DNA of 64,000 nucleotides from Actinomycetota bacterium (GTDB taxonomy: Bacteria > Actinomycetota > UBA4738 > HRBIN12). The notes beneath the pieces are model-generated. The model had not been told where the DNA came from and made no database searches. It saw only the letters and a program-made list of their open reading frames with translations. Shown here piece after piece: positions 23,870 to 41,157 of this stretch. The translations under genes and the position numbers were made by a program. Every line of letters begins with the position of its first letter. Positions within the stretch are counted from its first letter, which is position 1. Where the stretch lies: positions 650,138 through 714,137 of the forward strand of contig JBBECT010000005.1 of the NCBI GenBank assembly GCA_040881665.1, read 5' to 3'.

Positions 23870-23936
23870 ATGCCTTCTGCCTTTCTCGCCCGCCCGGAGG
23901 GGCGCCTCCCGGTCGGGCATTTCTCGTAGTCCGAGC

Positions 23937-24265: not shown

Positions 24266-24379
24266 CCGAGCGTCGGTTCGACGGCTTCGGATCCGCCGCA
24301 CCCTTGAGGTCGCTCGCCCGGATGCCGAAGCACCACGGGAAGCACACACGCCGGCGTCGGGCGTCAGGCATGGGGGTGG

Positions 24380-24408: not shown

Positions 24409-24484
24409 GACCAGGTCGAACGCTCCCGTCACCCCCCGGGCGTGGGCCGGCGTAGAGTGACGACCGAGGGACGAGAGGATCCGG

Positions 24485-26113
24485 ATGCCCCCCGAGCACT
24501 ACAGCACCAGCCGCTCGGAGACCCCTGAGGGCACGATCGACCTTCGCGCCTACCTGCAGGTCTTCCGCAACCAGAAGAAGACGATCGCCCTGTGCATCCT
24601 CGCCGCCGTGAGCCTGGCGGCCGCCTATAGCTTCACCCGCACGCCCGCGTATTCATCCAAGGCGACGGTCCTCGTGCAGCCGACGGGTGTCGACGTGAGC
24701 GAGCTCGGCTCGAGCAGCGTCGCCGAGCTCGTCAACCTCGACACCGAGAAGGAGATCGCCGGCTCCACCGAGGTCGAGGAGATCGCGGCCCGAACCCTGC
24801 GCACGGACCCGCAGAACGTGCAGCGTCATACGGCCGTCGCGTTCCCAACGGAGTCGCAGATCCTGGAGATCACCTACACCGATACCGATCCGGAGGATGC
24901 GGCCGCCGGCGCGAAGGCGGTTGCGGACGCTTACCTCGCATACCGGCAAACCCTCGCCGAGGCTGACCGGAAGGTGCGGATCGAGGCGTCGACGGCCACC
25001 CTCAGGGAAGTCATCGAAGACCTGAACGACGCCGCGGACAGCGCCACGACCGAGGAGGCGATCTTCGGGCTCGAGACCGAGTGGGAGCAGACGATCCAGT
25101 TCCTGCAACTGAACACGAACCCCGGCAGCGTCCTCGGGACGCCAGCGATCCCAGCGAACCCGAGCAGTCCGAATCACAAGCTGAACATCGCGGCCGGGCT
25201 GTTCCTGGGCGTTTTCCTCGGGATCGGGCTCGCGTTCCTTCGGGAACGCACCGACGAGCGTGCGCGAAGCCGGCAGGATCTGGAGGAAGCCTTCGCCGCG
25301 CCGGTGCTCGCGATCGTTCCGCAGATCGATGGATGGACCGACCGCCGCTCGACCAAGCTGATCAGCGTCGTCGACCCGAAGGCTTCCAGCTCCGAGGCCT
25401 ACCGATCCCTGCGGACCACGATCCTCGCGATGGCCGGCCGGCAGGGAGTCAAGACGGTCCTGATCACGAGCGCCCTCGCCGGAGAAGGCAAGAGCACGAC
25501 CGCGGCCAACCTCGCCGTCAGCCTCGCGAACGCCGGCAAGCGGGTCGTCCTCGTCTCGGCCGACCTGCGTCGCCCTCGCCTGCATCAGTTCTTCGGGCTG
25601 CCGAACTCGCGAGGTCTGTCGGACATCCTCACGGCGGAGGACGAGACGATCCGGATCGGCCCGCGCGATACCGGGATCGAGAACCTGTGGGTCTTCGTCT
25701 CCGGACCGATCCCCGAGCGTCCGGCCGAGCTGCTGCAGTCACACCGGATGCAGGACTTCATCGACGAGTGCCGCAAGGTCAGCGACATCACGATCATCGA
25801 CGGCCCGCCGATGCTGGCCGTCGCCGACAGCCTCGCGATCGCACCGCATGTCGACGGCGTGATCCTCGTGACCGACTCCGAGAGCACCCCTCGCGGCGCG
25901 ATCGCGCAAGCCCGGCTGGAGCTCGATCGGATCGGTTCGACCGTGCTCGGAGCCGTCCTCAACAACTTCGACCCCTCGAAGGCGCCGAGCTCGTACGGCT
26001 ACCAGAGCTACGAGATGTACGAGCAGCATCCGGAGGCACCGACCGAGGGCAACGGCAGCGGGTCCGAGTCGTCGGCCCGCTCCGGCCGCGGCGCGCGCTC
26101 GAAGCGCCGCTGA
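24485..26113 (+). CDS. Wzz/BY-kinase fusion (polysaccharide chain-length regulator and tyrosine kinase)
   Basis: The 542-residue protein combines an N-terminal chain-length domain with a cytoplasmic bacterial tyrosine kinase. Residues 18-60 hold a Wzz start and membrane helix. An extracytoplasmic helical domain spans about 60-235, and a second helix about 236-255. The kinase has Walker A GEGKSTT at 333-339, Walker A' VVLVSADLRRPR and Walker B TIIDGPP. The C-terminus has a tyrosine cluster (YGYQSYEMY) for autophosphorylation. It should control polymerisation and export by the Wzy/Wzx system encoded on the opposite strand nearby. One chain for both functions is the proteobacterial-like arrangement, also found in actinobacteria. 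Confidence 0.9.
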   Translation: MPPEHYSTSRSETPEGTIDLRAYLQVFRNQKKTIALCILAAVSLAAAYSFTRTPAYSSKATVLVQPTGVDVSELGSSSVAELVNLDTEKEIAGSTEVEEIAARTLRTDPQNVQRHTAVAFPTESQILEITYTDTDPEDAAAGAKAVADAYLAYRQTLAEADRKVRIEASTATLREVIEDLNDAADSATTEEAIFGLETEWEQTIQFLQLNTNPGSVLGTPAIPANPSSPNHKLNIAAGLFLGVFLGIGLAFLRERTDERARSRQDLEEAFAAPVLAIVPQIDGWTDRRSTKLISVVDPKASSSEAYRSLRTTILAMAGRQGVKTVLITSALAGEGKSTTAANLAVSLANAGKRVVLVSADLRRPRLHQFFGLPNSRGLSDILTAEDETIRIGPRDTGIENLWVFVSGPIPERPAELLQSHRMQDFIDECRKVSDITIIDGPPMLAVADSLAIAPHVDGVILVTDSESTPRGAIAQARLELDRIGSTVLGAVLNNFDPSKAPSSYGYQSYEMYEQHPEAPTEGNGSGSESSARSGRGARSKRR

Positions 26114-26276
26114 GACCGTTCATCCCGCTCCTCTGACCGGACCTCTCTCAGGCTATCCACTGCCGTACAACCGATCCCGCTCCCTCCTCTCCGGCACGCA
26201 TCCCCCCTGCTCAAGGCCCGTGTGAGCACGCCGATACCCCGAAAGACGCACGGGGAGGAACCGCAGGGGGATCGTG

Positions 26277-27275
26277 ATGAACCCAACCGAACGACGTCGG
26301 CGCACACCCTCGGTCGCGATCGTCGCCGCGCTCACCACGGCCCTGGTGCTGTCGGGCATCACCGGCGCGGAGGCGAAGCTGGTCCGCCGGGGTGGGGTCG
26401 AGATCCGGGAGCGGGTCGCGGGGCTCGTCCCCAAGCGCGGGTCGCTGTTCGGCTCGTGGGTGAATCCCCGGACCGGATGGAGCATGGACGAGCAGAAGTT
26501 CGCGATCCGCGACCTCGAACGCAAGACCGGACGCCAGCTCGACGTCAATCACTTCTACTACGCGTTCGACAAGCCGTTCCCGACCTGGCGCGAGCCGTGG
26601 AGCCTGCGGCGCGGGGGTATCCCGATGATCTCCTGGAACGGCACCTCGGCGGGCGCGATCGCAGGCGGCCGCTACGACACGATGATCCGTCAGCGTGCCG
26701 ACGCGGTCCGGGAGCTCGGAGCGCCGGTGATCCTCCGGTTCTTCTGGGAGATGGACGGCAAGCCGGAGCTGATCGCGAGCCCGAGCCAGTACATCAAGGC
26801 GTGGCGGCACGTCCACGACATCTTCGTCCGGCGCGGAGCGACAAACGCGGCGTGGAGCTGGTGCCCGAACGGCTGGGCCTTCACCGAGGGGCGCGCCCAG
26901 CGCTTCTATCCGGGGAAACGGTACGTCGACTGGTTGTGCGCCGACGGCTACAACTGGTTCCCGGGCAAGCGCGGCTCGAAGTGGCGCAGCTTCGCCGAGA
27001 TCTTCACCGACTTCTACCGGTGGGGTGTCAAGCTCGACAAGCCCATGATGGTGGGCGAGACCGGCGTCCAGGAAGACCGGCGCAAGGACGGGCGGAAGCG
27101 TCGGTGGTTCCTGAAGGCGAAGACCTCGATGAAGCGGCGGTTCCCGAAGATCCGTGCGTTCGTCTACTTCCACTCGGACTCGATCTATCCGTGGTGGGTC
27201 GATTCGAGTCCCCGCTCGTTGTCCGCGTTCGGCTCGGTGGCTCGCAGCGCGTACTTCCGCACCCGCGGACACTGA
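26277..27275 (+). CDS. Secreted GH26-like glycoside hydrolase
   Basis: The 332-residue protein has a signal peptide (1-33) and a TIM-barrel hydrolase similar to GH26 beta-mannanases. Glu158 in LRFFWEMDGK is the likely acid/base, Glu261 in MMVGETGV the likely nucleophile, and WSWCPNGW and YNWFPGKR line the cleft. It sits between the kinase gene and the polysaccharide operon, so it may trim or release the polymer made here. AGGGGG precedes the ATG at 26277; a GTG at 26274 is the alternative. The gene ends 14 bp before the convergent operon end. Confidence 0.8.
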   Translation: MNPTERRRRTPSVAIVAALTTALVLSGITGAEAKLVRRGGVEIRERVAGLVPKRGSLFGSWVNPRTGWSMDEQKFAIRDLERKTGRQLDVNHFYYAFDKPFPTWREPWSLRRGGIPMISWNGTSAGAIAGGRYDTMIRQRADAVRELGAPVILRFFWEMDGKPELIASPSQYIKAWRHVHDIFVRRGATNAAWSWCPNGWAFTEGRAQRFYPGKRYVDWLCADGYNWFPGKRGSKWRSFAEIFTDFYRWGVKLDKPMMVGETGVQEDRRKDGRKRRWFLKAKTSMKRRFPKIRAFVYFHSDSIYPWWVDSSPRSLSAFGSVARSAYFRTRGH

Positions 27276-27289
27276 CCAACGCGCCCGGA

Positions 27290-28543
27290 TCAGCGGGGGA
27301 CGCGCTCCCGAAGGGCGGCGAGGGCCGCACCGTGGAACCGGGGGTTGGTGCCCGATCCGGCCCGGCGTGCCCCTTCGTACCGAAGGACGAGCTCGAGCGC
27401 GTGCAGCGAGGCGACGGCCTCAGGGTCGGGGATCCCGAGGGAGCGTAGCGCCGGGCCCGCCGCCGCGGCCGATTCCGACAGCGAGACGTCGAGGTCGCGT
27501 CCGTCCCCGATGAACGCCAGCTGGAAGTGGAAGTGCAGGACGTCGAACCCGAGCGGTGCGTACAGACCACCGTGTTCCCAGTCCCACACGACGAAGCGTC
27601 CGTCGTCGCGCGCGAAGTTCCACGGAGACCAGTCCCCGTGCCAGGCGCCGATGCGGACCGTTCGGTCCCCCGCGCGGGACTCGATCGCGTCGGCGAGCGT
27701 GTCCGCCACCTCGACGAGCGACCCTTCAGCCCTCGGGGCCGGCCTCGCTCCCGAGCGTTCCGGCGCGCGCAGGACGGCGAGACGTTCGCGCACGCCCGTC
27801 CAGTACGACGAACCCGCGAGCGTCTCGTCGCGCGCACCTCCGTCGGCGAGGTCGGCGATCGCCCGCGTCACGTCCAGGGGCGGGAGCGCCCTCCACGGCC
27901 GCCATCGGCGAACCCCGACGGGCAGCGGAGCGGCGACCGACAGCTCCAGATCGTTCCATCGGCCACGGTGCAACACTTCGGGGGTCGCGAACGACGACGA
28001 CGCGGCCTGCCCGCACCGCGCGAGCAGGTCGGCCTCGGTCGCGACGAGCTCGCGGGTCACCTCGTTCCATCCCACCTTCGCGAAGCCGACGGGAACGCCG
28101 CGAGACGAGAAGAGCTGCAGCACGGGCTTGCGGAAGGGGCCGGGGCTCCCGACGCCGATCGCCGCGACGACGTCGCGGCCGCCGAACACCTCGGTCCGGA
28201 GGTGCTCGAGAAGGCTCGGCCCGCCCTCCTCGGACACGACCGTGAGCCGGTCGCGCAACGCGACGGGAGCGATCCCGGTGGCCAGCGCCGCCCCGAGAGC
28301 CGCGCGGGCGAACCGGGTGCGCGGATCCCGGAGACGGTTGTAGGCCCGCACGCTCGCCGCGGCGGCGCGGCGCGGCCGGGCCGGGACGAGGAAGCGCGCC
28401 CGCCGCCGATCCGGGACCAGGAGGTAGGACTCGTTCGCAGCACCGGCGCGGTCGCCACCCACGATCGCGCGGCCCCCCGTGTCCGTGGGCCACAGAACGG
28501 AGGTGAGCCAGTCGAGCCGGTCCCCCGGCGCGGGCGCGCTCAC
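27290..28543 (-). CDS. APH-fold kinase-like protein, paralogue B
   Basis: The 417-residue protein ends in an aminoglycoside-phosphotransferase-type C-lobe: WHGDWSPWN gives Brenner's motif (His302, Asp304, Asn309) and VVWDWE gives the metal-binding Asp321. FAKVGWNE (Lys156) is the probable ATP-binding lysine. Residues 1-135 form an unrecognised domain shared with the gene at 30973. The last gene of the operon, it starts with a GTG that overlaps the flippase stop. The context suggests phosphorylation of a sugar or polymer intermediate, not drug resistance. Confidence 0.75.
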   Translation of the reverse strand: MSAPAPGDRLDWLTSVLWPTDTGGRAIVGGDRAGAANESYLLVPDRRRARFLVPARPRRAAAASVRAYNRLRDPRTRFARAALGAALATGIAPVALRDRLTVVSEEGGPSLLEHLRTEVFGGRDVVAAIGVGSPGPFRKPVLQLFSSRGVPVGFAKVGWNEVTRELVATEADLLARCGQAASSSFATPEVLHRGRWNDLELSVAAPLPVGVRRWRPWRALPPLDVTRAIADLADGGARDETLAGSSYWTGVRERLAVLRAPERSGARPAPRAEGSLVEVADTLADAIESRAGDRTVRIGAWHGDWSPWNFARDDGRFVVWDWEHGGLYAPLGFDVLHFHFQLAFIGDGRDLDVSLSESAAAAGPALRSLGIPDPEAVASLHALELVLRYEGARRAGSGTNPRFHGAALAALRERVPR

Positions 28544-30114
28544 GCCTTCGAACCCCGGCGCTTGATCGCCTCGCGGAAGGCATCGAGCTCGAGCACACGC
28601 CGCGAGCGCCAGACGACGGCGAGATAGGCCGAGTACCCGACGATCGATGCGGCGAGGAAGGCGGTCACACTCGATCCGACGACGATCCGCACCGCGACCG
28701 AAGGAACGAGCACACAGGCGACGGACGCCATAACGACGCGGAGCCACGAGCGCCCGAACGGGTGCAGCCGGTCGAAGACCCAGACCTGCACGAGCGGCAA
28801 CAGGTTGTTGGCGAGCAGGCTCACGGCCCAGGCGATCGCCGCTCCTTCGATCCCCAGCGGCGGGATCAGCAACAGGTTCAGCAGGATGTTCAGTGAGAGA
28901 GCGATCACCGTGTTGGCCATCTGCCACCCGCTGCGGCCACCCATCAGCAGCACGATGTCGACCGGGCCGACACCGTTCGCGATCAGACTCGCGCCGGCGA
29001 TGATCGCGAGCGCCGTCGCACCCCGTGCGAACCCGGGGCCGAAGATGCCCAGCACCGTCGAGCCGAACACGATCAAGGTGAAGTAGAAGGGCCAGACGAG
29101 GAGCATCAGCCACGCCGTCGCCCCCTGCCAGAGGTGCTGGGCACGGCCGTGTTCGTCGCGGGCGAGCACCTCCGACAGCCGCGGTCCGATCGCCTGGATG
29201 ATCGCGACGTTGGCGAACGTCCCAACCTGGATGAACCGGGTCGCCGCCCCGTACACGCCCGCCGCGGTGGTCGACGCGAGCGCGGCGACGAGCAAGGTGT
29301 CGAGCCACAGGATGCCCACCTGGAAGAACCCGGCGAAGCCGCGCGGGGCGGTGAAGCGCCAGAACTCCCCCGCGAGCTCGTTCCAACGCCGCCGAACCTG
29401 CACCGGGTCCCGGCGGGAGGCCTCCCAGCGGCGGACGAGCGCCGCCAGCCAGCCCACCGCCACGACCATGCCGGCGAACATCGGCACCGTGTAGGCGAGC
29501 GACACGCCGAGCGCCTCGCCGCCGAGCGCGACCGCGATCAGCGCGAGGACGATCTGGGCCAACGGCTTGCCGATCTTGTCGACGACGACCGTCGGCAGCA
29601 TCGTCCCGAAACCGCGCGTGGCCGCGAGGGTGACCGTCAGGAGCGTCGCGACGGGCAGGAACACCCCGAACCAGCGCACGTAGGGCTCGACGAGCGCCGG
29701 GGGGGAGTTCCGCGAGAAGACCCGGGCGAGCTCGGGTGCGAACACGATCATCGCGCCGCCGAAGATCACGCCGACGAGCGCGACCGGGACGAAGGCGATC
29801 GGCAGGGTCCGGCGGGGCTCGTCCGGGCGCTCGAGCGCTCGGTGGCGAGCGATCATCCGGACGAGCCCGGTGTCCGACCCGAGCTCGGCCGTGTTCGCGA
29901 GGATCTGGAACAGCGCGACCCCGACGAAGAACGCGCCGACACGCTCGGCGCCGAGACCCCTCGTCAAGACCACGACGAGGCCGAAACCGCACAGCCCGCT
30001 CGCGATCGCGCCGACGAGGTTCAGCAGGCCACCGCGGGCCAGCGTCGCCAGGTCCGCGGCGCGATGGCCCGATGCCGGCTCGCCCGGCACCCGATCGTCA
30101 CGAGCGCCAGGCAC
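28540..30114 (-). CDS. Polysaccharide flippase (Wzx/MOP superfamily)
   Basis: The 524-residue protein is hydrophobic throughout, with about 14 predicted helices. It has the N-terminal LARGGLLNLVGAIASGLCGFGLVVVLTRGLGAE typical of MOP exporters. It should move lipid-linked repeat units across the cytoplasmic membrane for the polymerase at 32214. The GTG at 30114 has a good Shine-Dalgarno (GGAGGG) inside the end of the sulfotransferase gene and overlaps it by 17 bp; the stop overlaps the next start. Confidence 0.9.
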   Translation of the reverse strand: MPGARDDRVPGEPASGHRAADLATLARGGLLNLVGAIASGLCGFGLVVVLTRGLGAERVGAFFVGVALFQILANTAELGSDTGLVRMIARHRALERPDEPRRTLPIAFVPVALVGVIFGGAMIVFAPELARVFSRNSPPALVEPYVRWFGVFLPVATLLTVTLAATRGFGTMLPTVVVDKIGKPLAQIVLALIAVALGGEALGVSLAYTVPMFAGMVVAVGWLAALVRRWEASRRDPVQVRRRWNELAGEFWRFTAPRGFAGFFQVGILWLDTLLVAALASTTAAGVYGAATRFIQVGTFANVAIIQAIGPRLSEVLARDEHGRAQHLWQGATAWLMLLVWPFYFTLIVFGSTVLGIFGPGFARGATALAIIAGASLIANGVGPVDIVLLMGGRSGWQMANTVIALSLNILLNLLLIPPLGIEGAAIAWAVSLLANNLLPLVQVWVFDRLHPFGRSWLRVVMASVACVLVPSVAVRIVVGSSVTAFLAASIVGYSAYLAVVWRSRRVLELDAFREAIKRRGSKA

Positions 30115-30973
30115 ACTCCCTCCCCAGGAAGGAGAACAGCGCACGGTTCGGCTCGCGGAACGTCTCGAGCAGACGCTCGAGGGCGGCCGGGGGCATGTCG
30201 GTGTAGCGGCGCGCGTTGTGCTTGCCGTACTCGCCCAACGAACGCGGGGGCAGACCGAGGAACGCGAGCACCCGCGCGAAGCCCGCGTCCGGCTCGGCGA
30301 AGAACTCCTCGCTGCCGAGGATCAGGGTTCGTTCGGACGGCACGTGCTGCGCCCAGGCTCGCAGCTGGTCGAGGTAGAGGCCACGAGTCGCGTACGAGTG
30401 GTGCTGGAAGCTCTGCGACTCGTACGAGGGATCGGCGAGCAGCCGCTCGCGCTCCCCCGCGAGCCGCTCGGGCTCGGCCGCCAGGGCGTCCTCGAACGAC
30501 AGGTCTTCATAGCCGCGGGCCTTCTCGTGCTGGTACTGGGAGTAGGCCCGCTCGACCGGGTCGCGCAGCATCGCGATGATGCGCACCTGCGGAACCGTCG
30601 CGGCGACCCGCTCCGGAACCGCGGGGTGCAACAGGTAGTACGGCGCTCCCTCCCCGGTGACGAGCGGGTGCCCGGTCTTGCGCTCCACGCGACGGGCGGT
30701 CCCGCGGGTCGGGAAATGGCCCCGGTACCAGTCGAGTCCCCGGAGGTAGTTCTCGTCGAAGTAGTGCGCGCCCTTGCCCATCACGACTCGCGCGACGTTC
30801 GGGTGCTCGGCGAGATAGCGATACAGGGAGGTGGTTCCCGCGCGCTGCGCGCCGACGATCAGGAAGTCCGGCAGCACCCGCATCCCGCTCGTCGCGAGAG
30901 CGACACGCTGGCCGGCGCGTTTCGCGGCCTTGCGGACCGGGTCGGGCAGGCGGGTCTCGCTTCGCCCGGCCAT
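30098..30973 (-). CDS. Sulfotransferase C
   Basis: The 291-residue protein has the 5'-phosphosulfate-binding loop in FLIVGAQRAGTTSLYRYL and the 3'-phosphate site in IAMLRDPVERAYSQYQHE, so it uses PAPS. KGAHYFDENY is typical of heparan-sulfate-type sulfotransferases. It differs from the two sulfotransferases at 34468 and 35430, so it may modify a different sugar position. The ATG at 30973 overlaps the stop of the kinase gene by 1 nt. Confidence 0.9.
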   Translation of the reverse strand: MAGRSETRLPDPVRKAAKRAGQRVALATSGMRVLPDFLIVGAQRAGTTSLYRYLAEHPNVARVVMGKGAHYFDENYLRGLDWYRGHFPTRGTARRVERKTGHPLVTGEGAPYYLLHPAVPERVAATVPQVRIIAMLRDPVERAYSQYQHEKARGYEDLSFEDALAAEPERLAGERERLLADPSYESQSFQHHSYATRGLYLDQLRAWAQHVPSERTLILGSEEFFAEPDAGFARVLAFLGLPPRSLGEYGKHNARRYTDMPPAALERLLETFREPNRALFSFLGRECAWRS

Positions 30974-32217
30974 CAGGCGAGCCCCTCGAGCACGGCGAGC
31001 GCCCCCTCGGGAGCACGGTCGCCGGGGGGAAGGGTTCCGGCGGCGCGGGCCTCCTCGTAGCGCGCGAGCCGCTCGACGAAGTACCAGGAGAGCACGGCGT
31101 CGGGGTCCCCTGCCCGCAGCTCGGACAGCGCCTCGACGACGGCACCGCGCGCGAGGCCGAGCGCACGCGGGAGGTCGCGGCCGCTCGCGTGCGAGGCGAC
31201 CTGCACCTCCCAGTGCACCGCGTCGAGCCCCACCGGAACGCCGGCCGCGGCGCGCTCCCAGTCCCACACGGTCCACCGTCCTCGCCACCACGTGGTGTTC
31301 CAGGGAGCGAGATCGCCGTGCCACGAGCCGAACGGCACCGAGGTGCCGGCGAGGTGGCGTTCCATCGCGTCGAGGATCACTCGGGCCCGGGCCTGCACAG
31401 ACCCGTCTCCGGAACGTTCGATCCGATGGCGCAGGTCCGCCCAGCCGGGCTCGTCCACGATCCTCCGCGGCGTGGTCCGTTCGCGATCCGCGATCTCGCG
31501 GACGACCTCCAGGGGAACGCCCCTCGGGCCCCGCCGCACGAGGGGTTGCGGGGCGGGCGACACGATCCCGACCGGGAACCCTCCGAACGCGACGAGACCG
31601 ATCGGTGCCGGGACGTCGAAGTTCCGGGGCGGCGCATCGCTCCACGCGCGGAGGACCTCGTTCTCGCGGTCAACCAGGGCGCGCGTGAGCTCGTTCCAGG
31701 CGACCTTGGCGAACGCAACGACCCGACCTGAGGGCCGCAGCACCTGCACGACCGGCTTCGCGTTGGGCCGTACGCTGCCGAGGGTGATCGACAGCACCGC
31801 GTCCGGTACACCGAGCGTCTCTCGCAGGAACGGCTCGATCGCCTCGTCGTTCCCCGCCGCGGACACGCCGTCATCCGCGCGCAGCACGATGTGCAGGGTG
31901 CCGGCGGACAGACGCGCGCCGACGCCGAGACGGAAGGCCGCGCCGGCCGCCGACTTGCGCAGCCGCGCCGTCGCTCCCATCCCGTGGTTGAACTGATTGA
32001 GCGACGCGGAGGCGGCCCGCGGCGCACCGGCCGGCACGAGCAGGCGTGGAGCGGAGGCTCGTGGCACGATCGCGTACGACGCGACGGCCGTCGTGCCCAC
32101 CCGTGGCGACCCCAGCTCCGCGCGCACACGGGCAGCCGGCCAGAGGACGGAGGCGAGCCACCGGAGAGGGTCGGCCGTCGTCGACGCGGCCGGCGTCGTC
32201 GCGCCGGCGTCGCTCAC
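30973..32217 (-). CDS. APH-fold kinase-like protein, paralogue A
   Basis: The 414-residue protein shares its full layout with the protein at 27290. Residues 1-140 are an unrecognised domain beginning WLASVLWPAA. Lys171 lies in FAKVAWNE, Brenner's motif is WHGDLAPWN (His300, Asp302, Asn307), and WTVWDWE carries Asp319. The shared stretch around 'KPVVQV...FAKVAWNELTRALV' shows a duplication within the operon. It is coupled on both sides (GTGA with the polymerase, TGATG with sulfotransferase C). The substrate is unknown; a sugar or lipid-linked intermediate is the obvious candidate. Confidence 0.75.
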   Translation of the reverse strand: MSDAGATTPAASTTADPLRWLASVLWPAARVRAELGSPRVGTTAVASYAIVPRASAPRLLVPAGAPRAASASLNQFNHGMGATARLRKSAAGAAFRLGVGARLSAGTLHIVLRADDGVSAAGNDEAIEPFLRETLGVPDAVLSITLGSVRPNAKPVVQVLRPSGRVVAFAKVAWNELTRALVDRENEVLRAWSDAPPRNFDVPAPIGLVAFGGFPVGIVSPAPQPLVRRGPRGVPLEVVREIADRERTTPRRIVDEPGWADLRHRIERSGDGSVQARARVILDAMERHLAGTSVPFGSWHGDLAPWNTTWWRGRWTVWDWERAAAGVPVGLDAVHWEVQVASHASGRDLPRALGLARGAVVEALSELRAGDPDAVLSWYFVERLARYEEARAAGTLPPGDRAPEGALAVLEGLA

Positions 32218-33551
32218 GAGCCGGCCGCCGCGCTACCGGACAGACCGGCTTCGGCGCGCAGCCCGGCGAGGCGTTCCTCCTCGAGGATCGCGGTCTCGTC
32301 ACGGACGGCGCGGAGTCCGAGCGCCATCGCGACCATCGTGATCATCAGCTGGGCGGGCAACTGGCCGTAGAACGCGAGCTGCACCGTCGCGATCAGCACC
32401 ACCACCTGGCACCACAGGACCAGATCGGATCGGGCGCGGCGCATCCTCCATAACGCGATCAGGTACCACGACACGTAGAAGACGATCCCGGGGATCCCGT
32501 TCGAATACGCCACGAGCCAGAATTGCCCGTGCGTTCCCACCGACGGCAGGTTCGAGTTCTCTTCGGAGTCGCGCGGCGACCCGTACCCGAACAGGGGCGA
32601 CGCGGCGATGCCCGTCGCGGCCTCCTCGTACAGGGTCGAGCGCCCCTCGTCGCTGTGGCCGGTGGCGATCCGCGCCTCGATCACACCGCGCAGCGGACTG
32701 AAGAGCACGAGCATGCCGATCACGGCCACGCCGAGCAGCAGGTAGCCGAGCGGTTTGCCCCGCCCCTGCTGGGCCATCCGGAGCGCGGCGTACAGGATGC
32801 CGATCGACAGCGAGACCCACAGCCCTCGGTTCATCGACAGGATCACCGGGACGACCGCGAGAGCCAGCAAGACGCGTGCCAGGTTGCGCGCCGAACGCGT
32901 GCGCAGGTACTTCCACCCGAGGATCGCGAACGGGGTGAGCAGCGCGATCGCCGCCCCCCAGTCGTTCGTGTACTCGAACGGGAACTTCGGCCGCGGCGCC
33001 GTGTAGCCGAGGAACTCCGACTCCTGCGCGAACTCCAGGTGGACCATGTTGCGGACCCAGTCGTTGGAGGTCAGGCCGCCGGGCAGCGCCAGCTCCGTCG
33101 GGCTCGCGGCCTCGAACCCCTGCAGCACGACCCCGAGGAAGCCGCCGAGCACGACGATCGACCACAGGGCCGCCACCGACATCACGATCGCCTTGTCCGA
33201 CATCCGCTCGCGCGGCGCGTTGTACAGGTACAGGAGCAACAGCGTGGCGCTGATGTACTGCAACGCCCGGAACCCGAACGGCACGAGGCGCCCCGCTTCG
33301 CCCAGCATGATCGCCGAGCACAGCATCCAGCCGAGGAACAGCAGCCACACGCCGAACCCCTTCGGTGCCTCGACCCGATCGCGCATCACCAGCGAAAGCC
33401 CCATCGCGGCGCCCATCAGGAACCAGACGAACACCCCGAACCCGAGGACCCACCAGAAAGCGAACCCGACGAACACAACGTAGAAGGGCCAGCCATAGGG
33501 CAGGCGGGGAGCGCCGATACGCGGGCCGACGGCGAGGCCGACCGAGCTCAT
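32214..33551 (-). CDS. O-antigen ligase/polymerase-type protein (Wzy-like)
   Basis: The 445-residue membrane protein has about 11 helices and a large extracytoplasmic loop. WGAAIALLTPFAILGWKYL and MNRGLWVSLSIGILYAALRM match the O-antigen ligase/Wzy_C region; FGYGSPRDSEE, GTHGQFWLVAYSNGIPGI and the loop before them hold the conserved His expected for transfer of lipid-linked sugars. In this cluster it most likely polymerises the repeat units. The ATG at 33551 overlaps the GT2 stop (ATGA); the longer upstream frame runs inside that gene. Confidence 0.88.
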   Translation of the reverse strand: MSSVGLAVGPRIGAPRLPYGWPFYVVFVGFAFWWVLGFGVFVWFLMGAAMGLSLVMRDRVEAPKGFGVWLLFLGWMLCSAIMLGEAGRLVPFGFRALQYISATLLLLYLYNAPRERMSDKAIVMSVAALWSIVVLGGFLGVVLQGFEAASPTELALPGGLTSNDWVRNMVHLEFAQESEFLGYTAPRPKFPFEYTNDWGAAIALLTPFAILGWKYLRTRSARNLARVLLALAVVPVILSMNRGLWVSLSIGILYAALRMAQQGRGKPLGYLLLGVAVIGMLVLFSPLRGVIEARIATGHSDEGRSTLYEEAATGIAASPLFGYGSPRDSEENSNLPSVGTHGQFWLVAYSNGIPGIVFYVSWYLIALWRMRRARSDLVLWCQVVVLIATVQLAFYGQLPAQLMITMVAMALGLRAVRDETAILEEERLAGLRAEAGLSGSAAAGS

Positions 33552-34471
33552 ACGCCCCTCCCCGTCGCATTGACCGCCTTGACCACCCACGCCGGACGCA
33601 CCGCACCGGTGGACACGGCCCAGGCCAGGTACCCGCGAGGCTGGCGGGGGTCGAGCCGGATCGAGCGCTTCGCCCACCGGCGCGCTTCGTCCCGGTCACC
33701 GGACGCCGCGTGCGCGAACGCGATCCGACCGTACATCCGTCCGAGGTTGCGCGGATCCCGCGAGAGCTCGGGATGCTTGTCGAGCTGGTACTCGAGCGCA
33801 GGAACGATCGTCCCCCACCGGTCGGCGAAGAACGATCCCGCCCAGTGGACACGCGCGAGCGGCTCGGGAACCGCGACGATCGGTGCGACCTTCGCGGCCC
33901 GCAGCAGCAGGTCGTAGTCCTCGCCGTAGCTCCCGGGGATCTCCTCGTCGACGAGACCGATCTCCTCGACGAGCCGGTCGCGGCGCATCGCGAGGGTCGA
34001 GGAATGCACCTCCATCCGTCGCGACCGGGTGAGGTGGTCGAGCGTCACCCGGGGCCCGGGCGGGCGGCGGACGATCTCGCGCCCGCGGTTGACCACGTAG
34101 ATGCCGCACGTGGCGAGCGATGCATCGGGGTGGGCCCGGAGTGCCTCGATCTGCAGCCGGAGCTTGGAGGGGAGCCACTCGTCGTCGTCGTCGAGGAACG
34201 CGAGGAACTCGCTCGTCGCGGCGAGCACCCCCGTGTTGCGGGACCCGGCCAGGCCGGGGCTGCGTTCGTTCTCCGAGAGCGTGATCGTGCGGCCGGCGAC
34301 ATCAGGCACCCGTGGCGGCTCGGGTTCCTGCTGGTCGAACACGATCCGGATCTCGATCTCACCCGGGTAGTCCTGCTGTTGCACGCTGCGGACGGCCCGT
34401 GCGAGCAGCTCGGCTCGGTCGTGGGTCGGAACGATCGCGGTCACCCGCGGCCAGCGGTCGCCGTCGCTCAC
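33548..34471 (-). CDS. Family 2 glycosyltransferase
   Basis: The 307-residue protein has the GT-A fold signature TAIVPTHDRAELLARAVRSVQQQ, then SPGLAGSRNTGVLAA and the metal-binding FLAFLDDDDEWLPSKL. EDYDLLLRAAKV supplies the catalytic-base region. The C-terminal 60 residues are a TPR-like helical tail (GDRDEARRWAKRSIRLDP). It is the only classic glycosyltransferase in the operon besides the Alg13/14-like pair. It is coupled by GTGA and ATGA overlaps on its two sides. Confidence 0.92.
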   Translation of the reverse strand: MSDGDRWPRVTAIVPTHDRAELLARAVRSVQQQDYPGEIEIRIVFDQQEPEPPRVPDVAGRTITLSENERSPGLAGSRNTGVLAATSEFLAFLDDDDEWLPSKLRLQIEALRAHPDASLATCGIYVVNRGREIVRRPPGPRVTLDHLTRSRRMEVHSSTLAMRRDRLVEEIGLVDEEIPGSYGEDYDLLLRAAKVAPIVAVPEPLARVHWAGSFFADRWGTIVPALEYQLDKHPELSRDPRNLGRMYGRIAFAHAASGDRDEARRWAKRSIRLDPRQPRGYLAWAVSTGAVRPAWVVKAVNATGRGV

Positions 34472-35433
34472 GGGTCCCTCCGGTAGCCGTACCGGCGCAG
34501 CAGGGGAAGGGTCAGCAGCGAGACCATCCGCGCGTCGGCCTCCGGCAGCTCGCGACGCCACGCCTCGTCGAGCTCGAGGTCGATGCGCCCGGTCGCGAAC
34601 CGCATCGGATTGCCGGCGACGGTGTGGTCGCTCGCGAGCTCGACGGCGGCCGCACCCGCACCCTCGGTCACGAAGTCGAGAGCATCGGACCCGGCGCGGA
34701 GACGAGCGAACCGCACAACGCGCTCGGTCTGTGCCCGCGGGCGCTCGATCAGCGATTCGTACCGCACCAGCATCGTCGGGACCCCCGTCACGGGAAGCAG
34801 GTCGAACAGGAGGTTGAAGCCGATCCACCACCCGGCCATCGTCGCCGGCCGGAACAAGGGCATCAGCTCGTCGCGGCCCACGATCTCGGGCTTGACCACC
34901 TGTTTCGTCCAAGAATACGCCACGCCCCGTGGATCCCGGACGAGATGGACGGCCCGGAGATCGATCTCGGGGACGGCCCGGTACAGGTAGGCCGCGCTGG
35001 GATGCTTGCTCGAATCGATCACGATCTCGGCACCGCTCGCGTCCCGCGCGGCCCGAAGCACGCGGCCGACGTAGGAGCCGTACCGCTCGAGCGCCGCCCG
35101 GAACCGCGGTTCGGTCCGCGGCGCCAGCAACAGGGGGACGTATCGATTGCGATCCACCGCGCGTTGCAGCGCCAGGACCTCGTTCACGTCGATCCGGTCC
35201 CACCCACCGAACGCGAGGTCCCCGACCTTCGTCCAGAACGGGCAGGCGGAGAACGCCTCGCCGCACCCGCATCGTTCGTCGTCCCGCACCCCCCGCGCCC
35301 ACAGATGCACGACCTCGCCGAGCGACACGGCTCCGGGAACCTGGCCCACGATCCGGTCCAGGAGGGTGCTCCCCGACCGGCCCGCACCACCCACGTAGAG
35401 CACCGGCGTGGAGGCAGGGGCGCCGGCGCTCAC
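34468..35433 (-). CDS. Sulfotransferase B
   Basis: The 321-residue protein has the PAPS-binding loop LYVGGAGRSGSTLLDRI, the cysteine-rich insert CGCGEAFSACPFW and the 3'-phosphate motif LVRDPRGVAYSWTK. It is a close paralogue of the next gene upstream (35430), with the same order of motifs. The GTG at 35433 overlaps that gene's stop codon (GTGA), and its own stop overlaps the GT2 start. The acceptor is presumably a sugar of the exopolysaccharide. Confidence 0.9.
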   Translation of the reverse strand: MSAGAPASTPVLYVGGAGRSGSTLLDRIVGQVPGAVSLGEVVHLWARGVRDDERCGCGEAFSACPFWTKVGDLAFGGWDRIDVNEVLALQRAVDRNRYVPLLLAPRTEPRFRAALERYGSYVGRVLRAARDASGAEIVIDSSKHPSAAYLYRAVPEIDLRAVHLVRDPRGVAYSWTKQVVKPEIVGRDELMPLFRPATMAGWWIGFNLLFDLLPVTGVPTMLVRYESLIERPRAQTERVVRFARLRAGSDALDFVTEGAGAAAVELASDHTVAGNPMRFATGRIDLELDEAWRRELPEADARMVSLLTLPLLRRYGYRRDP

Positions 35434-36443
35434 GGTGCGCCCTGCTCCAGGTTCGAAGGCGTCGGGACCGACGTCCCGTTCCGTCCCCGGACGCCGTACC
35501 CGTAGCGGATCAGTCCCGGCAGGGTGAGGCCGGTGAGCGCGATGCGGTCGCGGGCGGGCAGCGCCGCACGCCATTCGTCGTCGACGCGGAGGGTCCGGCG
35601 GCCGAACGTGAAGCGCATCGGGTTGCCCTCCACCGTGTGGCTGGGCGCGAGCTCGACCTCCCGGCCGTCGAGGAACTCGAGGTCCTCTGCCGCCGGTACG
35701 ACCCCGGCGAGCGCGAGTGCCCGCTGGGTCTGCCCGGCGGGATCGGCGATCAGATCCTCGTAGCGCATGAACGCGTACGGAACCCCGAGCCGCGCGATCG
35801 CCGAAGTCTCGGCGTTGTACACGAGCCACCGCGCCGCCGACCCGGCGACCCCGTACCGCGGCAGGTAGGCCGGATCGCCCTTCGACACCTTCTTCTGCAC
35901 GAGCTTGCGCCACGAGTAGGCGACGCCGCGGCTATCGCGCACCAGATGCAGCATCCGAAGGTCGACCCGGGGGACCGAGCGGAGCAGGTACGCGTGCGAG
36001 GGGATCTTCGTCGAGTCGACGAGCGCGCGTGTGTCCGGACCGGCGGTCTCGGCGATCGCCCCGTACAGCGTGTCGAGGATCGCCCGGTACGTGTCGACCT
36101 GCGAGCGGGTGCCGGGACGGACCCTCGCCGCCGCGCCCGGCATCGCGAGCAACGGCACCATCCACGGCTTGTCGAGCTCGTTCTGCAGCTCGATCGCGCG
36201 GTGCACGTCGAGCTGGTTCCATCCACCCCAGCCGCGCTCGCCCACCTCCGTCCAGAACGGGCACGCGGAGAACGCCCGGTCGCAGCCGCAGGGGCGGTCC
36301 TCCACGACGCCGCGGAGCCAGATCTCCCGAACCTCGCCGAGCGAGACCACTCCCGGCACGTGGCCGAGCAACCGATCGAGCAGGGTGCTCCCGCTGCGCC
36401 CCCACCCGCCGATGAACAGCACGCGCACCCTGGCGGTGCTCAT
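35430..36443 (-). CDS. Sulfotransferase A
   Basis: The 337-residue protein has LFIGGWGRSGSTLLDRLL (5'-phosphosulfate loop), CGCDRAFSACPFW and HLVRDSRGVAYSWRK (3'-phosphate site). It pairs with sulfotransferase B as a tandem duplicate that has diverged in the acceptor-binding middle region. The ATG overlaps the stop of the Alg13-like gene (ATGA). Transfer from PAPS to sugar hydroxyls is inferred from the family and context. Confidence 0.9.
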   Translation of the reverse strand: MSTARVRVLFIGGWGRSGSTLLDRLLGHVPGVVSLGEVREIWLRGVVEDRPCGCDRAFSACPFWTEVGERGWGGWNQLDVHRAIELQNELDKPWMVPLLAMPGAAARVRPGTRSQVDTYRAILDTLYGAIAETAGPDTRALVDSTKIPSHAYLLRSVPRVDLRMLHLVRDSRGVAYSWRKLVQKKVSKGDPAYLPRYGVAGSAARWLVYNAETSAIARLGVPYAFMRYEDLIADPAGQTQRALALAGVVPAAEDLEFLDGREVELAPSHTVEGNPMRFTFGRRTLRVDDEWRAALPARDRIALTGLTLPGLIRYGYGVRGRNGTSVPTPSNLEQGAP

Positions 36444-36964
36444 GCCCCCGACCCCCCTTCGCCGGGCACCACGCCGTCGACGAGGCTCGCGAATCGAGCG
36501 ATCGCTTCGGTGACGTTCGGGTCACCGGACTCCGCGCGGAACGACCTGGCGCCGGAAGTGGCCGCATCCAGCAGCTTCGTCAGGTCTGCCTCGTTCGCGG
36601 CGAGGACGGCCTTCCCGAGTCCCGCGAGCCGTTGCGCGAACTCGACCTGGTGATCGTCGACGTGTTCGCCCTCAGACCCCAGACGGGGCACCACGATCGG
36701 CAGCCGGCCGGCGGCGCGCGCGAGCATCACGCTGCCGGTGCCGCCGTGGCACACGACCGCGTCGGCTTCCTCGAGCAGGGACCGGACACGGTCGAAGGGC
36801 AGGTAGTCGTGCCCCTCGGCGTGGACCGGCGGACGTGCGGTCCCGTACTGGACGATGACCCGGGCCCCCTCGGCGGCCGCGGATCCGGCCCAGGTGTCGA
36901 CCCACCCGATCAGCCGCTGGAACGGGTAGGTCTCGGTGCCGACGGTGACGAACACGGTGGTCAT
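36440..36964 (-). CDS. Alg13-like glycosyltransferase catalytic subunit
   Basis: The 174-residue protein is a GT28 C-terminal half. It starts MTTVFVTVGTETYPFQRLI and has DAVVCHGGTGSVMLARAAGRLPIVVPR, the UDP-sugar-binding loop. Together with the Alg14-like protein encoded just upstream it should form a two-subunit transferase that adds a sugar to a lipid-linked acceptor, as EpsF/EpsE-type or Alg13/Alg14 pairs do. The ATG at 36964 is chosen over an upstream frame extension. A 55-bp gap separates it from the Alg14-like gene. Confidence 0.9.
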   Translation of the reverse strand: MTTVFVTVGTETYPFQRLIGWVDTWAGSAAAEGARVIVQYGTARPPVHAEGHDYLPFDRVRSLLEEADAVVCHGGTGSVMLARAAGRLPIVVPRLGSEGEHVDDHQVEFAQRLAGLGKAVLAANEADLTKLLDAATSGARSFRAESGDPNVTEAIARFASLVDGVVPGEGGSGA

Positions 36965-37019
36965 GGGGAAGGGGTCGCACACTCCTCGTGTGTATGGCCT
37001 CGGTCGCTGGGCCTCGTTC

Positions 37020-37469
37020 CTAGAGCAGGGTTCCGATCACGTGCCCACGAGGATAGAACCGCTTCTGCTCGGGCCACTGGAGGACGAACAGGGTGCTCAG
37101 CGGGTAGCACAACCGCCCGGTCAAGGAGGGGGCGTCCATCCGCTCGTAGGCCTCCACGTAGACGGTCGGGATCCCCCGGAGGCGGGCGATCACGAAGAAG
37201 GGGAACGCGACCCCCGCGCCGCTCGAGACGAGCACGTCCGGGCGATCACGGCGGAGCAGGCGCCAGGCCAGCCGGAGGTTCCGCAGGGCGTTCGGCACGT
37301 TGCGCTGGGTCGGGTGATGGGCCCACGCGACCCGCTCACCGGCGAGGAGCGACCCGGCGTCGAGCTTGTCGAAGGTCACCCATCGTCGCTCGTGCGCGCT
37401 CCACCACGGGCGCAACTGGTGGAGGAGGAGCAGATGCCCCCCCGACGAGCAGACGAGGAGGACCCGCAC
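37020..37469 (-). CDS. Alg14-like membrane-anchoring subunit
   Basis: The 149-residue protein begins RVLLVCSSGGHLLLLHQL, the Alg14 N-terminal loop, and has VLVSSGAGVAFPFFVIARLRGIPTVYVEAYER in the middle. Alg14-type proteins bring the Alg13-type catalytic half to the membrane and supply the acceptor site. The GTG start lies 3 bp after the sugar-transferase stop. It ends with RGHVIGTLL, a normal end for the family. Confidence 0.9.
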   Translation of the reverse strand: MRVLLVCSSGGHLLLLHQLRPWWSAHERRWVTFDKLDAGSLLAGERVAWAHHPTQRNVPNALRNLRLAWRLLRRDRPDVLVSSGAGVAFPFFVIARLRGIPTVYVEAYERMDAPSLTGRLCYPLSTLFVLQWPEQKRFYPRGHVIGTLL

Positions 37470-37472
37470 CCG

Positions 37473-38984
37473 TCAGTAGGCTCCGCGGCGCGTCACCAGC
37501 TGTGGGATCGTCTTCGCGACGATGAACAGGTCGTAGGCGAGCGACCAGTTCTCGATGTAGAACAGATCGAGTCGCACGTACTCGTCGAACGACAGGTTGC
37601 TACGGCCGCTGACCTGCCACAGCCCGGTGACCCCGGGCTGCACTTCGAGCCGGTCGAACTGCCAGTCTTCGTACTCGCTGACCTCCTCGGGCAGCGGCGG
37701 CCGCGGGCCGACCATGCTCATCTCGCCGCGAAGGACGTTCACGAGCTGTGGGAGCTCGTCGAGGCTCCACTTGCGCAGCCACTTGCCGACGCGCGTGACA
37801 CGGGGGTCGTCCTTCAACTTGAACAGCGGGCCGTCCGCCTCGTTGTGCTCGCGCAGCGCGGCGAGCCGCTCCTCGGCGTCGGCCGCCATCGTGCGGAACT
37901 TCAGGATCGTGAAGGGCCTGCCGCGCTGACCGACCCGGCGCTGGCGGAACAGGACCGGACCAGACGAGGAAAGCCTGATCGAGGCCGCGATCACGATCCA
38001 CAGGGGCAGGGTGAGCAGCAGTCCGAAGCTCGAGAGGGCGATGTCGAACAGCCGCTTGGCGATCGCCTGCGTTCCCGTCAGGCGCACCGGACGCAGCGAC
38101 AGCGACATCAACCCGCCCAGCGGTTGCGCCGACACGCGGGTCGACAGGACCTGGGGCAAGGTCGCCGTGACGCGGACCTCGACGCCTTCGAGCCGCACCG
38201 CCTTGGCGACGTGACCCATCTCCTGGGTCTCGAGTGCGCTCGAGGCCACGAACACGCAGTCGGCCCCGGACTCGCGGATCACCTCGCGCAGGTCGCTGAC
38301 CCCACCCATGACGGGCCCAGGGGTATCGGCAGGCGGCACATCCGAGGTCGAGACGAAGCCGATCGGCGTGTAGCCGAGCGCGGGTCGGTCCATCAGGTCG
38401 TGCAGGTGCGTTGCCTCCTCGTTCGTGCCGACGATGAGGGTGCGGAACCGCAGGTCGCCGCGCTCGCGGGCGCGGCCGATGTACCAGTGCCACACACGGC
38501 GCGAGAACAGGGTGAACACGAGGGTGAATCCCCAGGTCAGCGCGATCCAGCCGCGGGCGAACGAGGACTTCGCCCAGAACGAGACCGTGGCGAACCCCAT
38601 CACGCCGAGGGACACGGCCAGGATGATCCGGCGGAACTCCTCGACCGGGGTGAAGTGGTGTGCGTCGTAGAGGCGGAACAGCGCGAAAACGCCGGCGAAG
38701 AACAGCGGCGCTGCCACGAACAAGGCCACGAACTCCGGCTCCGGAGAGTTCCAGCCGAATCGGATCAGGTAAGAGACCCCGAGGGCCAGCGCGATCGACA
38801 GGGCGTCGGTGAGCGCCATCCGGCGGTAGAGAGCGCCGTAGCGCTCTCGCGCGGACGGCAGCGCGGTGTCGTATCGAGGGATCGCGGTGCGCAGCCGCTC
38901 GGCAACGCCGATCCCCGATGTGGAAACGTCTTCAACGCGTCCCTGCAACGACTCTCCCTCTCGTTCCCCTACCGCCCGCCACAC
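37473..38984 (-). CDS. Polyprenyl-phosphate sugar-1-phosphate transferase (WbaP/WcaJ type)
   Basis: The 503-residue protein starts polysaccharide synthesis by loading a sugar-1-phosphate on undecaprenyl phosphate. Four helices (about 60-165) and a Rossmann-like CoA-binding-type domain (175-300) precede the C-terminal transferase. RLFDIALSSFGLLLTLPLW is the membrane-associated helix, and KFRTMAADAEE, KWSLDELPQLVNVLRGEMSMVGPRPP and PGVTGLWQVSGRS are catalytic motifs. Start is uncertain: GTG at 38984 has no Shine-Dalgarno, while TTG at 38948 has GGGAG 5 nt upstream. It is the first gene of the eleven-gene operon. Confidence 0.93.
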   Translation of the reverse strand: MWRAVGEREGESLQGRVEDVSTSGIGVAERLRTAIPRYDTALPSARERYGALYRRMALTDALSIALALGVSYLIRFGWNSPEPEFVALFVAAPLFFAGVFALFRLYDAHHFTPVEEFRRIILAVSLGVMGFATVSFWAKSSFARGWIALTWGFTLVFTLFSRRVWHWYIGRARERGDLRFRTLIVGTNEEATHLHDLMDRPALGYTPIGFVSTSDVPPADTPGPVMGGVSDLREVIRESGADCVFVASSALETQEMGHVAKAVRLEGVEVRVTATLPQVLSTRVSAQPLGGLMSLSLRPVRLTGTQAIAKRLFDIALSSFGLLLTLPLWIVIAASIRLSSSGPVLFRQRRVGQRGRPFTILKFRTMAADAEERLAALREHNEADGPLFKLKDDPRVTRVGKWLRKWSLDELPQLVNVLRGEMSMVGPRPPLPEEVSEYEDWQFDRLEVQPGVTGLWQVSGRSNLSFDEYVRLDLFYIENWSLAYDLFIVAKTIPQLVTRRGAY

Positions 38985-39221: not shown

Positions 39222-40154
39222 TTACCCGAAGAGACTGTCGATTATGCGGATCACGCCGGGTCCGACGATCACGATGAACAGCGCCGGAAGGATGCAGATG
39301 ATGAGGGGGAACACGATCTTCACGGGAGTCTGCTGTGCAGCGCGTTCGGCGCGCTGACGGCGCTTGATCCGCAACTGCTGGGACTGGGTGCGCAGCACAT
39401 TGCCGATGCTGACACCGAACACATCCGCCTGGATCATCGCGAGGGTGAACGCGTTCAGCTCCTCCACGTCGGTCCGCTCTGCGAGGCTGCGGAACGCGTC
39501 CGCACGCGAGACCCCGAGCTGGATCTCCTGCAACATCCGCGCGAACTCCGACGAGAGCGTTCCCGGCGTGTTCTGCACGACCCGGGACAGCGCCGCGTTC
39601 AAGGACAGACCCGCCTCGACGCTGATCGTGAGCAGGTCGAGGGTGTCCGACAGGGCGTTGCGGATCTCCCGCTGACGTTCCCGTACCTTGCCGTCCAGGA
39701 TCGCGTCGGGGCCGACGAACCCCACGAACCCGAGCAGGACGAGCATCGCGATCACGATCATCCCCGAGAACCCCGCGATGCCCGCGAGGATGAGTCCCCC
39801 GACCGCTCCGCCGATCACCCCGAGCACCTTGAACGCCAGGACGCGCTCGGCGTCCCACCCCGGCGGGTTGCCGGCGAGCACGAGCTTGCGGGCCATGCGC
39901 TCGCGCGCCTCGACGGGCGTGAAGCGTTTCGCGATCGAACCGGCCGCGCCCACGAGGGGGAGCAGTGCCCGGTTCGTGAACGGCTGTTCCAGCTCGTCCT
40001 CACGCTGGTTGGCACCCGCACCCTCGCCGACCTGCGACTCGAGGAGCTTCACGGCGCGCTCCCGGTCCGAGATCGACCAATCGAGCGCGACGCCGGCCAG
40101 CACGATGGCCGCGAAGGTCATCCCGAGCCCGAGGAACAACCAGAGGTTAGACAT
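39222..40154 (-). CDS. tadC: Tad pilus inner-membrane platform protein TadC
   Basis: The 310-residue protein has the T2SSF fold: [25 protein letters not shown] and [31 protein letters not shown] are the conserved parts, with membrane helices near the N-terminus, at 100-150 and at the C-terminus. With TadB it forms the platform on which the CpaF motor acts. The ATG at 40154 overlaps tadB by 8 bp. It is the last gene of the tad operon. Confidence 0.9.
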
Positions 40155-41157
40155 CGATGTCGATGACCTTTCGCATCCAGACCACGCCCACACCCATGAG
40201 GACGACGGCTCCCGCGACGAGCACCCACCCGAGCGTCGTCGTGAACAGCAGCCCGATGTAGTCGGGGTTCACCAGTCCCATGTAGGCGGCGATCACGAAC
40301 GGCATCGCGATCAGCACGACCGCGGACAACCGTCCCTCGGTCGTCAGCGTCGTGATATCGCGCCGGATCTCCTGGCGCTCGCGGATCGTCATCGCGACGG
40401 TGTCGAGGATCTCTGCGAGGTTGCCGCCCACCTCACGCTGGATGTTGATCGCGAGGACGGCCCAGGTGAAGTCCTCGACGCCGATCCGCTCGGCCATCGC
40501 GTCGAGCGCCTCCTCGGATGCACGCCCGAGGCGGATCTCGGCAACCACCCGGTTGAACTCCGCGGCCGCGGGCTCGTCGATCTCCTTCGCGACCGTGTCG
40601 AGCGCCTGCAGGAAGCTGTGTCCAGCGCGCAACGAGCTCGCGAGGATCGTCAACACGTCCGGGAGCTGCTCCTGCAGCTTCGTGTCGCGCTTGGAGATCG
40701 CCCGACGGACGATCACGTAGGGGATCGCGCCCGCCGCCACCGCCAGCAAGGCAGCGAGCACCACGGGAACACCGAGCACCACCGACAGCACACCGCCGCC
40801 GAAGGCGGCGAGGACGGTCACGACGACGAACTCCCCGCCACGCAGCGGCAGTCCGCTCTGTTCGAGCTTCGCGTCGAGCGACACGCCGAAGCCGCCGGCG
40901 GTCGCGACCTTGCCGCCGGCATGGGCCACCGACGTCGGGATCCACGACATCGCCTGATCGACCTCGTCATCGTCGACGGACTCCGGATCCCGCGGAGTCC
41001 CACTGCGCGCCAAGAGCATCCGCGCGGCCATCCGCCGTTCCTCCCGCATCCGGAGGCCGGTCCCGAGGATCATCCAGAACAGCATTCCGAACGCCGCGAA
41101 GCACACGGCCACGACGATCACGAGGCCGAGCGTGCCGCTGAGGGCGGCGCCGATCAC
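40147..41157 (-). CDS. tadB: Tad pilus inner-membrane platform protein TadB
   Basis: The 336-residue protein has two N-terminal helices, a T2SSF domain with [26 protein letters not shown] and [25 protein letters not shown], and C-terminal helices (about 270-330). It pairs with TadC. The GTG at 41157 overlaps the cpaF stop (GTGA). Confidence 0.9.

Follow-up and report, generated by a model that had tools for sequence, protein, structure and literature searches.

Sulfated polysaccharides are usually associated with animals, algae, cyanobacteria and a few marine bacteria. Among actinobacteria, the closest described system to the locus considered here is the wps-1 cluster of Actinoplanes missouriensis (AMIS_7280-7380), described by Tezuka and Ohnishi in Appl Environ Microbiol in June 2026 (PMC13390465). 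It encodes a family 2 glycosyltransferase (GT2, WpsA), a sulfotransferase (WpsB), a GT26 (WpsC), a family 26 glycoside hydrolase (GH26, WpsE), a methyltransferase (WpsF), the flippase Wzx (WpsG), a heparan-type sulfotransferase (WpsH), a protein-kinase-like protein (WpsI), the polymerase Wzy (WpsJ) and Wzz (WpsK), and it adjoins an ATP sulfurylase/adenosine 5′-phosphosulfate (APS) kinase gene. The authors predict that it makes a sulfated polysaccharide. Sporangia are squashed in mutants of wpsA, C, G, H, I, J and K, deletion of wpsI gives the phenotype of the cluster deletion, wpsB mutants form normal-looking sporangia and release about ten times fewer spores, and a mutant of the adjoining ATP sulfurylase/APS kinase gene has severe defects (PMC13390465). 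The best chemically proven bacterial parallel for a Wzx/Wzy pathway with sulfotransferases is synechan of Synechocystis sp. PCC 6803, a sulfated polymer made by the xss cluster that has been isolated and analysed (PMC8205485). Here, we compare with these systems an operon in a stretch of 64,000 nucleotides (the window) from an uncultured Actinomycetota bacterium (UBA4738; HRBIN12), positions 650,138 to 714,137 of contig JBBECT010000005.1 in assembly GCA_040881665.1.

A first-pass annotation of the window had assigned an eleven-gene operon at 27290-38984 to the synthesis of a sulfated exopolysaccharide. This reading is well supported by inference from sequence, and we consider it very probable that the operon's product is a sulfated exopolysaccharide assembled by the Wzx/Wzy pathway. 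The genes form one chain on the minus strand, from 38984 down to 27290, with all frames intact, and Pfam and NCBIfam searches recover all of the named families, in agreement with the annotation for every operon gene with a known domain. By the same searches the pathway set is complete: initiating polyprenyl glycosylphosphotransferase (PHPT), glycosyltransferases, flippase, polymerase and co-polymerase. Judged by gene content, the functional locus exceeds the operon and runs from about 21489 to 38984, including the convergent GH26, Wzz-kinase and DUF4012 genes. Its genes are, in the direction of operon transcription:

37473..38984, minus strand: PHPT, 503 aa (Bac_transf 2.4e-68; EPS_sugtrans 430 bits, over the cut-off); an alternative start at 38819 would give 448 aa.
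37020..37469, minus strand: Alg14/PssD-like half of a two-part glycosyltransferase (Alg14 5.5e-12; NF041549 PssD 105 bits, just under the cut-off of 110).
36440..36964, minus strand: Alg13/PssE-like catalytic half of the glycosyltransferase (Glyco_tran_28_C 4.4e-14; PssE 5e-23 and WelK 1.5e-27, both below cut-off).
35430..36443, minus strand: sulfotransferase ST-A (Sulfotransfer_3 8.2e-11; cofactor motifs; structural model).
34468..35433, minus strand: sulfotransferase ST-B, a paralogue of ST-A (Sulfotransfer_3 9.1e-10).
33548..34471, minus strand: GT2 glycosyltransferase (Glycos_transf_2 1.3e-20).
32214..33551, minus strand: Wzy polymerase (Wzy_C 1.2e-12; several membrane segments).
30973..32217, minus strand: K1, a predicted kinase of the aminoglycoside phosphotransferase (APH) fold, WpsI-like by position (family profile, model, Foldseek, invariant residues).
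30098..30973, minus strand: ST-C, a sulfotransferase of the heparan sulfate 3-O-sulfotransferase/NDST type, WpsH-like (Sulfotransfer_1 3.3e-18; HS3ST3A1 2.3e-21).
28540..30114, minus strand: Wzx flippase (Polysacc_synt 1.3e-16; 11 transmembrane-like segments).
27290..28543, minus strand: K2, a second predicted APH-fold kinase (35% identity to K1).
26274..27275, plus strand: secreted GH26-like glycoside hydrolase, convergent with the operon (Glyco_hydro_26 6e-7; signal peptide).
24485..26113, plus strand: Wzz/BY-kinase chain-length regulator (Wzz 4.8e-12 plus AAA domains).
21489..23447, plus strand: DUF4012 membrane-anchored protein (DUF4012 5e-23).

Nearly all neighbours in the operon had been said to overlap by 1-17 nt, and this is the case at 8 of the 10 junctions. 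Six overlaps measure 4 nt (Alg13/ST-A, ST-A/ST-B, ST-B/GT2, GT2/Wzy, Wzy/K1 and Wzx/K2), K1/ST-C measures 1 nt, and ST-C/Wzx measures 17 nt, a value that depends on the start chosen; the two gaps, PHPT/Alg14 and Alg14/Alg13, are 3 nt and 55 nt long. The predominance of overlapping junctions indicates that the operon would be read as a single transcript with coupled translation.

The case for sulfation begins with the three sulfotransferases, which had been annotated as using 3′-phosphoadenosine 5′-phosphosulfate (PAPS). The 5′-phosphosulfate (5′-PSB) and 3′-phosphate (3′-PB) binding motifs are indeed kept in ST-A, ST-B and ST-C; in ST-A they read GGWGRSGST and LVRDSRGVAYSW. Two families are represented, with the paralogues ST-A and ST-B (46% identity) belonging to Sulfotransfer_3 and the heparan-sulfate-type ST-C to Sulfotransfer_1. 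A phmmer search of PDB sequences with ST-A returned nothing useful, while its structural model (pLDDT 89.2) best matches PAP-bound tyrosylprotein sulfotransferases (TPST) at TM-scores of about 0.5, which supports a sulfotransferase fold and says nothing about the substrate. Among solved structures, ST-C is closest to heparan sulfate 3-O-sulfotransferases and NDST (1e-21 to 1e-14), a likeness that we take as similarity only. Since none of the three proteins has a transmembrane segment, sulfation is placed before the flippase: it would most likely be cytoplasmic and act on the lipid-linked repeat before Wzx does.

How widely is this arrangement kept? A scan with an alignment of the operon's kinase family, at one genome per species, confirmed 441 relatives; the analysis rests on the best 80 of these, and each locus whose title gives a phylum or genus belongs to Actinomycetota. 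Setting aside three loci in the query leaves 77, found with the kinase alone, and within 10 kb of the kinase these hold ST-C (70), Wzx (70), Wzy (70), Wzz (64), GH26 (57), GT2 (49) and ST-A/B (33), with some contigs too short to show all genes. Of the 59 loci with both flanks present, 58 have ST-C and every one has Wzx. Kinase and ST-C lie on the same strand and at most 150 bp apart in 62 of the 72 loci having both, and ST-C of the window is 40-51% identical to its linked homologues. APS kinase occurs in 33/80 kinase loci, where random 20 kb stretches of a several-Mb genome would yield it in well under 1/80, and the two loci checked with Pfam both carry an ATP-sulfurylase/APS-kinase fusion. 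Of 397 sampled Actinomycetota genomes, 19 have the kinase and 30 have close homologues of ST-C; of ten sampled genomes with a strong kinase match (E ≤1e-40), nine also have ST-C and the tenth is a 66% complete bin.

Comparison with related genomes had been proposed as a check, and it places the same sulfotransferase types in Wzx/Wzy clusters of dozens of other genomes. Within the same family, one locus (L032, genome G010) holds GH26, ST-A, Alg13, Alg14, GT2, ST-B, Wzy, K, ST-C, a Wzx-type flippase and Wzz, where K stands for the kinase; another (L033, G002) holds DUF4012, PHPT, Alg13, Alg14, Wzz, ST-B, GT2, Wzy, K, ST-C and Wzx. The ST-B homologue of G010 (L032:5135-6450) is split into two overlapping frames by a frameshift or an assembly error. 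The cassette is also present in other, distant Actinomycetota families (L059-L064).

These data bear on two other accounts of the operon. Stf0 and other mycobacterial sulfotransferases act on glycolipids or small metabolites, and the window enzymes could do the same and sit among polysaccharide genes by chance; Stf0 and STF1/STF9 do appear, weakly, among the structural matches of ST-A. However, the sulfotransferase genes overlap the polymer genes and would be co-transcribed with them, the linkage to Wzx/Wzy is kept in 70/77 loci across the phylum, and heparan sulfate sulfotransferases are the closest solved relatives of ST-C. Other targets are also made less likely by the occurrence of the same enzyme types in other Wzx/Wzy clusters and by the genome itself, a 2.46 Mb assembly of 7 contigs that was searched by protein family, in which ST-A, ST-B and ST-C are the only PF00685/PF13469 sulfotransferases found. 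We regard this account as quite improbable. Still less credit, to the point of being negligible, goes to the idea that the operon has decayed or makes an unsulfated capsule, given that its frames and PAPS motifs are intact and that it is conserved at 39-51% identity over the family.

A sulfated polymer also calls for activated sulfate, and the first-pass annotation had pointed to PAPS synthesis genes and sulfatases as things to look for in the genome. Both are there. Contig C4 encodes ATP sulfurylase (Sat, 1.2e-103), next to a CysH-like gene, and contig C7 encodes APS kinase (CysC, 1.4e-60), so that both are on other contigs and not beside the operon. The two CysH-like proteins carry the CC...CxxC paired-cysteine motif of APS reductases, from which it follows that sulfate assimilation probably runs through APS without a need for PAPS, leaving PAPS free for sulfation. 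Seven sulfatases have the CC[PA/PS]xR formylglycine motif behind N-terminal leader-like sequences. On contig C7 of the window genome (G000; L011:8452-9837 and 7829-8455, minus strand), the gene directly before APS kinase encodes a type I phosphodiesterase/nucleotide pyrophosphatase (PF01663, 1.4e-41). G006 has this pair too (L164:13387-15407), and in G001 a phosphodiesterase-type gene is found next to DUF4012 and a sulfotransferase cluster (L156:843-2216). The PF01663 phosphodiesterase might handle the turnover of PAP or PAPS.

Several observations weigh against the reading of the operon as a source of sulfated exopolysaccharide, or limit its reach. For the window organism as for A. missouriensis, sulfate in the polymer is so far a prediction, and substrates and linkages are not readable from sequence. 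APS kinase is present in 23/27 genomes of the order, including ones without the cluster; its presence is therefore weak evidence, and we dropped a dedicated PAPS supply as a discriminating test. Finally, a cassette in a genome of the same taxonomic order (L163, G021) runs Alg14-Alg13-ST-ST-GT2-Wzy-Wzx-ST-C and has no kinase, so not every version requires the kinase. Next to ST-C, this kinase-less cassette encodes two alpha/beta hydrolases, and it has a second Wzx-like flippase as well (L163:2979-4633). More generally, PF13469 sulfotransferases occur in 25/27 genomes of the order, often two to four within 10 kb, so that sulfated products may be common there and the window operon one version among them. 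These order-level sulfotransferase clusters (for example L154, L156, L158 and L163) are mostly without the K kinase, and several differ in layout from the window operon.

But what do the two kinase-like proteins do? K1 and K2, which the first-pass annotation had rightly called kinase-like on sequence alone, are APH-type by family profile, model and catalytic residues, even though no Pfam model was matched by either protein on its own and a phmmer search of PDB sequences with K1 gave nothing useful. Pfam APH is matched by 31/75 members of the kinase family at E up to 0.1, K1 itself not being among them. In the 75-member alignment, K154, K171, E185, H300-G-D302, N307, D319, E321 and D332 are invariant, which comprises the APH-type catalytic set of lysine, glutamate, HGDxxxxN loop and metal-binding aspartate; the invariance of W-H-G-D and P-W-N is built in, because the collection scan used that motif, while the other invariant residues are independent of the scan. 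The K1 model (pLDDT 91.5, pTM 0.90) matches homoserine kinase, Rv3168, glucosamine kinase, fructosamine-3-kinase and maltokinase in Foldseek at modest TM-scores. Together, this supports K1 and K2 being APH-type kinases, apparently active, that act on a sugar or small molecule. The constant adjacency of K and ST-C, and the lack of a Pfam match for K1 and K2 alone, would also suit pseudokinases or scaffolds that tie the sulfotransferases to the membrane complex; against this stands the invariance of the lysine, the glutamate, the HGD aspartate, the asparagine and the metal-binding aspartate, and we find such a role unlikely.

K1 and K2 are paralogues. In the kinase tree K1 groups with kinases of the same family and K2 falls in another subclade, in a region where long branches meet and the exact placing is unsure. 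Their placement in different subclades leads us to reject a recent local duplication, and nothing beyond that exclusion can safely be drawn from it. Near PHPT or Wzz genes lie more distant members of the K family, at 23-25% identity (L065-L071, family f14), which may be related kinases of other polysaccharide clusters.

On this basis we propose the following course of synthesis. PHPT would load the first sugar phosphate onto undecaprenyl phosphate, and Alg14/Alg13 and GT2 would add further sugars, giving a repeat of about three sugars if each acts once. Sat and CysC would supply PAPS, with which ST-A, ST-B and ST-C would then sulfate the lipid-linked repeat in the cytoplasm. Wzx would flip the sulfated repeat, Wzy would polymerise it, the Wzz-kinase encoded on the opposite strand would set the chain length, and the secreted GH26 could trim or release the polymer. 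With three sugar-adding steps and three sulfotransferases, a short repeat with heavy sulfate decoration is plausible. Because K adjoins ST-C in most relatives, we place K1 and K2 at the step that feeds ST-C, with a sugar or the nascent repeat as their most likely substrate.

The fate of such a phosphate leads to two more far-reaching ideas. The polymer could be phosphorylated as well as sulfated, with K1 and K2 acting on the repeat and the phosphate persisting as a substituent or serving as a WbdD-like termination mark. The APH-type fold near sugar kinases (glucosamine kinase, maltokinase, fructosamine-3-kinase), the invariant catalytic residues, the adjacency to ST-C in 62/72 loci and the phenotype of the wpsI deletion in A. 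missouriensis (PMC13390465) are all consistent with this. However, APH-fold kinases mostly act on small molecules, so that K could make a sugar phosphate precursor instead, and WbdD works in an ABC-transporter pathway. We hold this version to be possible, with the odds against it. WbdD-like chain termination by the kinases we reject, as the profile comparison with WbdD gave no significant match (E 0.26). More speculative still, the K family may represent kinases of a previously unclassified type whose phosphorylation of a sugar in the lipid-linked repeat primes or licenses sulfation by ST-C, which would make the product a phosphorylation-gated, glycosaminoglycan-like sulfated polymer.

Among the genes flanking the operon, the GH26-like hydrolase has both catalytic glutamates, in the motifs WEMDG and VGETG, and DUF4012 genes also adjoin sulfotransferase clusters in relatives (L033, L156). 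On the other side, the polysaccharide operon is directly preceded by the end of a Tad/Flp-type pilus cluster (39222-46342, minus strand), with T2SSF proteins, a TadA-like ATPase, a ParA-like protein and TadE/pilus-assembly-like genes.

Individual components have their own known counterparts. The Alg14/Alg13 pair shares its split architecture with PssD/PssE, Cps14F/G and WelK; as the window proteins fall below the NCBIfam equivalog cut-offs, glucuronosyl transfer is not claimable. UGD is encoded in the window genome (C5:733598) and at L033 of G002, but the 80 kinase loci yielded no copy of it; for this absence, we do not claim a glucuronate polymer made from UDP-glucuronate. K1 resembles the APH-fold sugar kinases in fold and catalytic residues, but TM-scores of about 0.3-0.6, identities of 9-18% and an N-terminal extension of about 140 residues set the K family apart from them.

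At the level of the whole locus, synechan shares with the window the Wzx/Wzy/PCP machinery and sulfotransferases of two subfamilies; xss differs in having eight glycosyltransferases, two sulfotransferases and its own regulators, and the excerpted account of it mentions no K-type kinase (PMC8205485). The likeness to wps-1, compared via the text of the paper and proxy genomes, is closer. Except for wpsD, a locus of Actinoplanes sp. NBRC 103695 (L132) matches wps-1 in both gene set and gene order. Like wps-1, the window has GT2, two sulfotransferase families, one of heparan type, Wzx, Wzy, Wzz, GH26 and a kinase-like gene beside the heparan-type sulfotransferase, K1 and ST-C even overlapping, and its block Wzy-K1-ST-C-Wzx repeats the order at the centre of wps-1. 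Unlike wps-1, it has three sulfotransferases, two kinases, a PHPT and the Alg14/Alg13 pair, and its operon is without GT26, S-adenosylmethionine-dependent methyltransferase and DUF4262 genes, the GT26 and methyltransferase being variable among relatives. Sat and CysC are encoded elsewhere in the window genome, and in view of the 33/80 loci that have APS kinase we treat the ATP sulfurylase/APS kinase neighbour as optional. As to sporangia, no indication for or against them was found in the window's lineage.

The first-pass remark that such polymers are little described in actinobacteria calls for a single amendment, since the homologous wps-1 is now on record (PMC13390465). The present comparison indicates that a gene cassette for a sulfated polymer is spread over many Actinomycetota families, well beyond the sporangium-forming genus first studied. 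Its most constant unexplained partner is the K kinase family, conserved, beside ST-C in most genomes and required in A. missouriensis, and the window locus, with three sulfotransferases and about three sugar-adding steps, offers a compact set for reconstituting a bacterial sulfated polymer. By its gene content, we see this locus as a deep-branching addition to the recently described wps-1 kind, distinguished by its three sulfotransferases and two kinases of different subclades, and not as a new kind.

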